Positions 28,166 to 35,652 of a stretch of 64,000 bases of DNA are shown one piece after another; positions within the stretch are counted from its first letter, which is position 1; each line of letters opens with the position of its first letter. The stretch is from Mesaphorura yosii (taxonomy: Eukaryota > Arthropoda > Collembola > Poduromorpha > Tullbergiidae). The notes under the pieces were generated by a model. The model searched no databases. It saw only the letters and a program-made list of their open reading frames with translations, and was not told the origin of the DNA. Position numbers and translations under genes: made by a program. The stretch is taken from positions 186,001-250,000 of the forward strand of contig WIXG01000058.1 of NCBI GenBank assembly GCA_009869945.1, given 5' to 3'.

Positions 28166-31003
28166 TTACTTTCCGAAGCAGGACACGGCATTGAACGCAC
28201 ATTGTTTCCAATATGTCGATGTCCTCTTTCGCTGTTGCTGCTGTGGGCTCAAGTAATAGGATGCATAAGGTTGTTGGTCGAAGAACGCAGCAGCAGCAGC
28301 CGAGCCTGGGCGTAGTCGTTGTAGCATTTGTCTGGTATAGAAGTAGTTCAACAATGGATTTTCTGCTGGTGCTGGAGCTCCGTCATACTCGTCCCGGCCT
28401 GCTGCATACTGTAATTGTAAGACAGACAAGGAAGCACTTAAATTCAGCCTAGAAAACTTCTACTTTGCCCGAATTTTGTGGCAACGGAAGTTCGAAGTTC
28501 GAAATTTTGAGAAAATAATTGGGTTTGAGTACAAGTTGAAGGAAGTTCTTCATTAGTAAAACATTTTGTGCGCAAATCGGTTCTTCTCAGAAATTTCGAT
28601 GCAATTCAGTGTGGTTTCTGGATTACGTAAAACATGAGCATAAAAACAGATCGTAGCATCGAGATCTTTCTCAACTTTCCCCACGCGAAGCCTGCCGGCT
28701 GCCTGTTGCATACGCTTTCGAAAACTGGTTCAAAGTGGATGTAACATATAAAAATGCTACGCGGGACGTGGCTGTACTGCGCTGAAGTGAAAGTTTATTT
28801 CCTTAAAACAATCTCTCAGGCTACCCGGCCTGTAAATAGAGAATTTGATCTGATGTTAGTAATTTTAGACTTCATACTCAAAATGTTATCTTAAGCAAAT
28901 TGTTTCTTGGGATTTGAGAAAGAAAATATTCAGATTGAGACATTCAGCCAGAGGATACTAGCACATGAAATTGATGGCCCGACTCCCTTGTCCAGTAATT
29001 CAATCTGGGTAAAATGTAAACTGTGAACTGAGAACATAAAAATTTTGACATTTTAAAGCCCGGCCTGTGACGCAAAAAGGCACGTGTTCATACAAGCATC
29101 AAAGCTCCGAGCATTTGACGCCCTAAATCTGTCGGCAGTGCAAACTTCTAAGATCCAGAATTTTGTAATCTATACTCTGCCTTTCTCGAGCGAAGATAAA
29201 GGTAAAACTGCCACAGAATTCCGCACCGTACCGGCGCGATGTTTGTTATTTTGATTCAATTTCACTGCAGAATACGTGACTCAATTAACTTGAACTCATT
29301 ATTTTCTTGCGGTCGCTTTCTTCTCGCGCCGCGCACTCGGCGGTAGCACTTGATTAGCAATATTGTTGCTCGGTACGGGAATTATGAGGTAGAAAATTAG
29401 TGGCTCTATTCAAAGAAAATGTGAGCGTAAGAGGTTCAAGCGCGCGTGAAACAAATGCCTACATGAAGGATGGTGGTAAGAAAGAGGCAAAGAAGTGGGC
29501 GGCTGAAATTAAACCCTTGAACCAGATCGTTTCATGTTCGGTACTTAATTTTTGAAAATCATACACTGCTGAGCTGCTGTGATTGTTAAATAATGCCTCT
29601 CGCAAGTGAAGTGAGCCGGACAGTTCGTAGAATCGGCCGTTTGCTGCTCCGCACAGTCAGGCCTAAGTTTAAAAGGTGAAAGAAACTCTAGCTTTGACTT
29701 TGAGTCGAGTCATTATCTATTCATGGATCTCAGAACCTCGAACTGCCAAAGAATTACAGCCTGCCTGGATGGTTTCGAAACTTTCTCTCTGCGGCTTGCC
29801 TTGCCTTGGGATGAAATGAATAGTTAATCAAGTGCAAACAGAAAATTAGCCTACAAATGGGTCAATGATTGAATCCGCAAGCGAATTCAACGACTAGCCT
29901 GTCTGGCTTGTCAGAATGACCATTCAGGCAATCAAAAGGGCTTGCAGGACAAAAACTGACGTGGACATTCAAGGAAATAAGACTTTGATCTTTTCTACTG
30001 AGCATACGTGCATTTGTGAATTCGTAATGTAATGCAGTCAAAATCAAAGGAACGACAAATGGCACTGAATGTAGAGCGAGAAAAGAGGTTTCGTTTTGAT
30101 TGAGAAATGGTTGATGTATTCTGTCCGGTTTAATAATCGGGCATTTACACGTAATGCCAGAATATTAAATGGTAGAAAGTTAGAATTACATGAACTGCGT
30201 TTTAAATACTTAGAGTTTTAACCTTTGCTTTCTTATACGGTGGAAATCTTTGCCGCGAGGGTTCCTGCCTTCAGATTCTTTAGATCTTTCACACATCGCC
30301 GCGTAACTACGAGACAAACAAGCATGAGACAGTCTGTATTGCATCGACAAAAGTGGTAGGATGATGAAAGACTCGCGTTCCTGCCTCAGAACTACGACTT
30401 AGTGAATTTTAACTTGAATCTCACAGAAATGACAACAAAACTAGCAACAGCCACAGCACCGAAACCGGAGTAGGCAAAATGAAAAAATTAAATCGCAACA
30501 GCAACTTTTAACTTGTACGCTTTCTTACGTTGTAGGGAAATGTAAATTGATTCCTTACTCAAATCTCTCCCAAACAAGCCTTGCCTTTCTTGCTCAATCA
30601 CAGCGATCTTGATTTCATAGTGCAGAATGCAATCTCTTAATTAACTTTGAGATGACTTTGATTTTTACTCTTGTCTCCCTGAGCCGACTGAGTTTGGTAA
30701 TTACAGTCGAGTTTTGAGCTGCTGCGGCAGAGAAAAACAACGACTTACATCCAAATCACCAATTCCGCCTGACTTTTCAAGACCAAACTGCTGCTGCTGT
30801 TGTCTTTCATGTTCTAAAGCTCCGACTTCATGTTGCGCCGCTGCGTCTTCTCCGTAAAGACTTTTTCCTTCGATGGCGGTCGGCAGCACGCAAACCACGA
30901 CCATCATCAGCACCATCACGGCGGTTGAAACATTTCTTGTCCATTTGCTCATGCTGGGCCCAACCAACTCGTAATTTGACAGATTGCTGTTACTGGCTGC
31001 CAT
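28166..31003 (-). CDS. AstCCC: Allatostatin C-family neuropeptide precursor, amidated CCC-like type
   Basis: This is a secreted prohormone. Exon 1 (30749-31003) encodes a signal peptide ([19 protein letters not shown]). A 2.3-kb intron follows, then exon 2 (28166-28408) in phase 0, giving 165 aa. The last 18 residues after the dibasic RKR are [18 protein letters not shown]. The two cysteines flank AFNAVS, and the terminal GK provides a C-terminal amide after trimming. Known crustacean and insect peptides of the form [19 protein letters not shown] are almost identical; these are the AstCCC or 'AST-C II' type. It would act through somatostatin-type GPCRs. The start may be the second Met (30952), which sits directly before the signal peptide. 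The acidic, Gln-rich spacer contains another likely processing region. It is divergent to the AstCC gene 3.4 kb away. Confidence 0.93.
28409..30748 (-). other. Large intron of the AstCCC-like gene
   Basis: Bordered by GTAAGT (minus strand, 30743-30748) and ACAATTACAG (ending at 28409). The 67-codon frame at 29862-30065 (-) has no recognisable product. No other gene was seen inside. Confidence 0.7.
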
Positions 31004-34394: not shown

Positions 34395-35652
34395 ATGGAG
34401 TCAACCAGCAGTCAACACCGTAAAGTGATTGTGATACTTGCAATTGTTGCCGTTATCCTTCAGCAAAGCCACGTCCACTGTACGTCAGTTTCAAGCCCAA
34501 AATCCAGCCATGACGCTGACGCGAGTCGGCCATCTGCACCGGCCTCCATGAATTCAGAGAAAGTCGACGTCGGCCTTCTGCAGCAACCCCGGCCCAAGCA
34601 GCCCCAGTCACAGTCTTCGTTGGCAGCTGCAGCGCTGATCATGGGCCCACTTTCGTCGATGATTTCACAAATGCGTAGCGGGATCCGTCAGATAAAGCGC
34701 CGAGATGTAGCGGGGCAAGATGAGCTGGACGACGAGAACATCAGCGTCGGTGGTGGGAGCAACCAACCGGTGACGGATCAAGTGTTTTACCCAATGGTAA
34801 GATAATTCAGTGTATCCAAGCGTAATTTGAGTAATTTCAGCCTCCTGTATTCATTTACCCACATTTTGGCAGCTGATATCGAAGAAATCGGCGACGGCTC
34901 TGAATAAACTGATTTATGCGTTGAAGACCAGCTTGGACTCGGCATCACTCGAACAGGTAGGATACGAAATTTTGCGCCAGTCAGCCTCGGGTCGTGAAAC
35001 CATCAATTAATTTTACGACTAATTCTCGAATTCGAATTTAATTTTTACCTGCTGCATTCTTACGTTCTGCCTACCACCTTACTACTGACATTCCTTCATT
35101 TGCTACGATTGCCACTGTTCTGCCTTGCTTCTGCGTTCTGCCTTCTTTCACATTCCACGCCATGACATGCCAGGGTACCTCCACGCCTGGATTCCCACTT
35201 ACTGGCCTGGCAGCCAAGCCAGTTAGTGTCAGGGACGTTCAGGCGACACCCCAGCAAGCTCTTTTTGCACAATGGTCCTACGATCCGGTACATGCCCACT
35301 CATTTTTTGCATGCTTTTCTATTTTTAGAACAAGCCAAAGTAAGTAATAATTAAGCATCTTAAATAGAGCCTTGGCCTTTTTTTATTAGCTTTAGCTTTC
35401 ACGCCTACGAATTACGAAAAGAGTAGTCAGGCCAGGCCAGCAGAGCTTCAGCCTTGCTTCACAGTAAACATCATCAAAAGACCATAAATTACTGCGAATC
35501 TCCATTTAAATCCATTTATTACTCGGCCCTGCTCATAATCTTTGTTTTTGTGTCTTGCACAGTACAATCCACATCTCCAAAGACGTACTAACCAGCAGAA
35601 AGATCGTAAAAATTATCTTCGCTGTTATTTCAATGCTGTTTCCTGTTTCTAA
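34395..35652 (+). CDS. AstCC: Allatostatin CC (double C) neuropeptide precursor
   Basis: Secreted prohormone in four exons, all phase 0: 34395-34796, 34873-34956, 35174-35287 and 35563-35652, giving 229 aa. The ATG at 34395 precedes a signal peptide (VIVILAIVAVILQQSHVHC). A long spacer contains basic sites such as IKRR and QRR. The C-terminus NYLRCYFNAVSCF follows DRK and ends with Phe as a free acid. The C-Y-F-N-A-V-S-C core is that of arthropod AstCC peptides, which usually read YWRCYFNAVSCF. Here Leu replaces the Trp. Cleavage at the upstream RR would give a longer 20-residue form starting TNQQK. A short splice-flanked block at 35329-35339 may be an alternative exon. Polyadenylation signals follow at 35836-35841. 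Confidence 0.88.

Follow-up and report, generated by a model that had tools for sequence, protein, structure and literature searches.

Two neighbouring genes in divergent orientation are predicted to encode secreted precursors of the AstCCC and AstCC types of the allatostatin C family, and they likely owe their adjacency to a local duplication. The window, that is, the whole stretch of 64,000 bases that was analysed, corresponds to bases 186001-250000 of contig C58 in an assembly of 93 Mb and 1127 contigs.

Organization of the locus

The start codons of AstCCC (minus strand) and AstCC (plus strand) point apart, with 3,391 bases between them, so that the genes lie head-to-head. Position 28166 is the final base of the AstCCC stop codon and position 35652 that of the AstCC stop codon; the divergent orientation, the distance of 3.4 kb and the end coordinates given in an earlier note on this DNA are exact on these gene models. 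All introns of both genes are in phase 0 and have GT/AG junctions. Like the orientation and the distance, the open frames and the splice, cleavage and amidation signals can be read directly from the DNA. Nothing was recognised between the two start codons. The features of the locus are as follows.

31003-28166, minus strand: AstCCC gene, two exons, from GT/AG splice sites and open frame
30749..31003, minus strand: AstCCC coding exon 1, 85 codons, with donor GTAAGT in phase 0
28166..28408, minus strand: AstCCC coding exon 2, the peptide exon including the stop codon, with acceptor ACAG in phase 0
28310..28363, minus strand: conserved pro-peptide block of AstCCC, from the alignment with 13 of 78 relatives, coordinates set by hand
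28175..28222, minus strand: predicted mature AstCCC, after KR and before GK and stop, read from the gene model
27701..27706, minus strand: possible AstCCC polyadenylation signal AATAAA, a motif match only
31004..34394, no strand: region between the start codons, 3,391 bases, with the unmapped promoters of both genes
34395-35652, plus strand: AstCC gene, four exons, from GT/AG splice sites and open frame
34395..34796, plus strand: AstCC coding exon 1, with start codon and donor GTAAGA in phase 0
34873..34956, plus strand: predicted AstCC coding exon 2, from splice sites and frame only
35174..35287, plus strand: predicted AstCC coding exon 3, from splice sites and frame only
35563..35652, plus strand: AstCC coding exon 4, the peptide exon including the stop codon, with splice site, RR site and a stop directly after CF
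35587..35649, plus strand: predicted mature AstCC TNQQKDRKNYLRCYFNAVSCF, after RR, without amidation signal
35836..35841, plus strand: possible AstCC polyadenylation signal AATAAA, a motif match only

The core motif C-x-F-N-x-x-[ST]-C-F, which was chosen after the finding had been seen, occurs twice in the window and is absent from all 300 dinucleotide shuffles. A looser motif (C, six residues, CF, stop) is also present twice and was equalled by 12 of the 300 shuffles. Since shuffles reach the looser motif and chance matches occur genome-wide, the argument depends on how the precursors are built and on their relatives.

The AstCCC gene

On its predicted protein, the minus-strand gene can be firmly assigned to AstCCC because of its named arthropod relatives, a conserved pro-peptide block and the peptide itself. 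The open frame yields a precursor of 165 aa. Exon 1 begins with a start codon followed by a hydrophobic, signal-peptide-like stretch (hydropathy maximum 3.38 at residue 29), has another in-frame ATG at codon 18 and is nearly unchanged in the unnamed ENA sequence P0002, with one residue change. The predicted peptide matches the published AstCCC sequence at 13 of 14 residues.

Searches with the precursor retrieved 78 proteins at E <= 0.01 out of 687 candidates. By our own count 64 of these 78 carry a name, which is allatostatin C or prohormone-1 in 54 cases, and all 64 species are arthropods. The peptide and the block LLNYLFAKQMVxRLR are common to the 13 of 78 relatives that were aligned, and within the block N106 and R116 are invariant among them. 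When a tree was built from the window gene and 29 of its 78 relatives, the window gene came out on a long, unplaced branch.

P0003, an unnamed, metagenome-derived AstCCC precursor from JGI, has an N-terminal stretch (PSM-x-KWT, GKSL) in common with the window gene, and this stretch is absent or mostly absent in the 12 other aligned relatives. Judging from this sequence, P0003 perhaps comes from a closer relative of the animal to which the window belongs.

The AstCC gene

The plus-strand gene is most likely AstCC, as judged from the encoded peptide, which follows an RR site and lacks an amidation signal. The assignments of both genes in the earlier note are thereby upheld, that of AstCCC firmly, by relatives and block, and that of AstCC by its peptide. 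The AstCC precursor comprises 229 aa and has the C-terminal end RR-TNQQKDRKNYLRCYFNAVSCF-stop. Exon 1 encodes a hydrophobic, signal-peptide-like stretch with a hydropathy maximum of 3.84 at residue 11; exons 2 and 3 are the predicted parts of the model. The peptide resembles polyneopteran GQQKGRVYWRCYFNAVTCF at 14 of 19 residues, and its end YLRCYFNAVSCF departs from YWRCYFNAV[TS]CF by one change, which lies outside the ring. Protein searches with the AstCC precursor retrieved no named relative and a single match, an unnamed near-identical exon, by a method that is weak on short conserved tails.

AstC-type genes elsewhere in the assembly

No AstC gene was found in the window by motif scan, as the earlier note had reported. 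It had also suggested searching flanking scaffolds for a CYFNPISCF-type AstC gene, and the motif scan of the assembly recovered two AstC-type genes on other contigs. The gene on contig C176 has the CYFNPISCF ring and the end ILFRQCYFNPISCF-stop (6928-7401 of L009), and the gene on contig C45 has a CFFNPISCF ring and the end LILFRQCFFNPISCF-stop (7280-7802 of L010). In both, as read by eye, the first exon is hydrophobic and the intron is in phase 0. The two predicted peptides are alike at 13 of 15 residues and the pro-regions are weakly alike (106 of 2000 shuffles reach the score). The assembly thus holds at least four genes of the family, of which only AstCC and AstCCC are linked. Given its positions on C176 and C45, AstC is not part of a local cluster with the pair, and over the 214 kb and 70 kb of contig C58 past the pair no further motif match was found.

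The relaxed motif scan of the assembly gave 8 places, against 7 for a reversed control pattern, so the motif alone proves nothing. Four of the 8 are AstCCC, AstCC and the two AstC-type genes. Those on C10, C148 and C179 were discarded, with a stop codon inside the motif, as was CVFNSRSCF on C114, which immediately follows a stop codon and shows neither a stop nor a cleavage site where one would be expected. Motif scans would miss family members with an altered ring motif or with an intron inside the motif. When the AstCCC protein was used as a query against the assembly, the matches were both exons of the gene itself and a pair of weak hits with E values of 0.18 and 1.5; no second AstCCC emerged. 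AstCC and AstC were not retrieved either, so this query is blind to such paralogues.

Origin of the linkage and possible co-regulation

According to the title of a 2016 article by Veenstra (Gen Comp Endocrinol 230-231:153), AstC, AstCC and AstCCC arose by local triplication in an ancestral arthropod. The earlier note regarded the present locus as a direct trace of that event. The part of this claim that concerns a linked pair from a duplicated family holds; that the pair is a direct trace is the likeliest reading. We infer, as the best interpretation, that the linkage of AstCC and AstCCC is a remnant of local duplication. If four genes were placed at random, some two of them would lie within 7,487 bases of each other with a probability of ~0.001, a value computed after the fact. 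The pro-regions of AstCC and AstCCC show no likeness beyond that of shuffles, 1223 of 2000 of which score as high, and the argument for common descent therefore rests on the peptides.

Alternatively, the gene identities may be right and the closeness secondary, a later rearrangement having joined AstCC and AstCCC after dispersal of the cluster. This is unlikely in view of the chance of ~0.001 that two of four genes come this near and of the local origin proposed in print under that title, even though AstC is no longer in any cluster. Secondary closeness would also suit the cricket, in which, according to one study (PMC9960350), AstC lies on another scaffold than AstCCC and AstCC has no assigned position; given this placement, the AstCC-AstCCC linkage cannot be called general. 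Decidedly unlikely, in our estimate, is a more far-reaching proposal, in which the pair is what survives of the core of a founding arthropod cluster of somatostatin-like hormones and has been held together since early arthropods by shared control DNA within the 3.4 kb that separates the genes, while AstC left the cluster and doubled, resulting in a four-hormone system. A simpler form of shared control, one region driving both genes and thereby keeping them head-to-head, appears very improbable. It would agree with the divergent orientation, with the fact that nothing was recognised between the start codons and with a 20-base inverted repeat, 75% complementary, that joins 31008-31027, beside the AstCCC start, to 34129-34148, 250 bases before the AstCC start. 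However, repeats as short as these often arise by chance, and 3.4 kb is a large gap for a bidirectional promoter. The expression of AST-CCC and AST-CC in the crab Carcinus also argues against it: AST-CCC was detected in cerebral ganglia, a site at which AST-CC was never seen, and the same neurons hold AST-C and AST-CC.

The earlier note had proposed that a shared upstream region might co-regulate the two hormones. Such co-regulation of AstCC and AstCCC is possible and found no support, the repeat search between the genes having yielded no more than short repeats in two copies and a pair of weak inverted repeats, and the Carcinus pattern being one of AST-CCC without AST-CC. It is extremely improbable that the AstCC gene is decaying or not expressed and that only AstCCC works. 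The replacement of W by L ahead of the ring and the long pro-region without named relatives could be taken as signs of decay, but the frame is open across four exons with GT/AG sites, and the ring, the RR site and the stop are all intact. Furthermore, another source, the unnamed ENA sequence P0001, has exon 1 open and nearly unchanged, differing at 3 residues. We retain local duplication as the preferred origin of the two neighbouring genes.

A protein of Daphnia sinensis annotated as an AstC preprohormone (P0045) is an AstCCC with a 150-residue N-terminal extension. The extension resembles a second secreted precursor, perhaps that of a neighbouring gene fused by the gene predictor, and would be independent evidence of linkage if it were AstCC. 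This candidate was rejected: the likeness of the extension to the AstCC pro-region of the window falls short of significance, the score being equalled by 380 of 2000 shuffles, and the extension fits the two AstC pro-regions as well as or better than AstCC (312 and 140 of 2000 shuffles, respectively).

Other genes in the window and the assembly

Exons with cullin, cytochrome P450 and SAND domains were found in the window at 8606-9001 (plus strand), 10268-11170 (minus strand) and 62226-63215 (minus strand), respectively, and these are ordinary neighbouring genes. The search with the cytochrome P450 exon gave 19 matches, few of them named. Three sodium:solute symporter-like frames on the minus strand (12411-12944, 17893-18285 and 18543-18974) look like gene copies; two of them have a similar stretch by eye, and the third has a match to Pfam SSF below the curated cut-off.

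An arginine kinase is encoded on the 30 kb contig C638. In the PDB, its best whole-chain matches, at 629.7 and 619.2 bits, are a pair of two-domain enzymes; its best single-domain match is chain 4bg4_B (569.7 bits, 253 of 286 residues identical), which is from a shrimp. This enzyme and the arthropod names among the AstCCC relatives point, as far as sequence likeness goes, to an arthropod. Besides this ordinary arginine kinase, a divergent phosphagen-kinase-like gene is present at C299:29914-30518 (L023, L026). Fatty-acid-binding genes are also present in the assembly and, like the cytochrome P450 exon, gave no clear pointer to a lineage.

The SIFamide motif K-x-PFNGSIFG was found nowhere in the 93 Mb assembly, in which an intron within the motif would hide a match, and COX1 gave no match there; the explanation is an incomplete assembly, a motif interrupted by an intron, or real loss. 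The pattern NSELINS occurs at 16 places, against 10 for its control, and at the one examined (on C22) the frame is shorter than 30 codons. The missing SIFamide motif had raised the possibility of a tardigrade; the arginine kinase, the arthropod names among the AstCCC relatives and a scan of the assembly in which the tardigrade AKH motif was not found speak against it.

Proposed mode of action

From what is known of the allatostatin C family, both precursors would be expressed, enter the secretory pathway and be cleaved at a dibasic site, KR in AstCCC and RR in AstCC. A ring would close between the two cysteines of each peptide, and AstCCC alone would be amidated at its C-terminus through its Gly-Lys end. 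Both peptides may then act on somatostatin-type (AstC) receptors, AstCCC as a neuropeptide and AstCC as a neurohormone or local signal. In the honey bee, the CCC-type peptide (named ASTC there) and ASTCC activate one receptor, with EC50 values of 14.6 and 15.4 nM, respectively (PMC4704819). A 2025 crab study still calls the receptor of AST-CCC elusive. Considering these published findings, the AstCCC receptor may differ between lineages.

Significance and comparison with known systems

In the open-access literature searched, none of the listed papers combines AstCC and AstCCC with the term 'same scaffold', an arrangement that may still be described, and the rings CFFNPISCF, LFRQCYFNPISCF and LRCYFNAVSCF, searched as exact sequences, did not appear among the papers listed. 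The genome paper on the centipede Strigamia might bear on head-to-head arrangements of neuropeptide genes. The pair fits the published view of local duplication; it is a new instance, not a surprising one, and ordinary in kind. What it adds is a compact genome in which an amidated and a non-amidated sister hormone adjoin and AstC exists as two dispersed genes. Gene order can thereby test the proposed triplication: should this head-to-head pair recur with the same flanks in distantly related arthropods, synteny would reveal in what order the duplications took place, which very short peptides cannot settle. Because the AST-CCC receptor is still called elusive, a species that keeps every AstC type is useful for matching ligands to receptors.

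As in the arthropod AstCCC (prohormone-1) precursors, the window gene encodes a KR site, the core peptide and a Gly-Lys end, has the block LLNYLFAKQMVxRLR and carries the peptide on its last coding exon. The AstCCC gene of a beetle is described with the same exon plan, one exon carrying the signal peptide and the final one the mature peptide (PMC6585902). In contrast to those precursors, the one encoded here has an N-terminal TST in place of S in the peptide, ~17 extra alanine- and tyrosine-rich residues between block and peptide, and a long glutamine-rich stretch. Arthropod AstCC precursors likewise agree with the window gene in a C-terminal peptide that follows RR, conforms to QQK-x-R...RCYFNAV-[TS]-CF and has no amidation signal. 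The RR site and the lack of an amidation signal are also given for AstCC of Polyneoptera (PMC7179676), where, however, precursors measure 108-172 aa, compared with 229 aa here. The published form reads YWRC where the window has YLRC, a change from W to L before the ring. The locus resembles the proposed AstC/AstCC/AstCCC triplication in that two types out of the three lie close together, and differs from it in that AstC lies elsewhere and is present twice.
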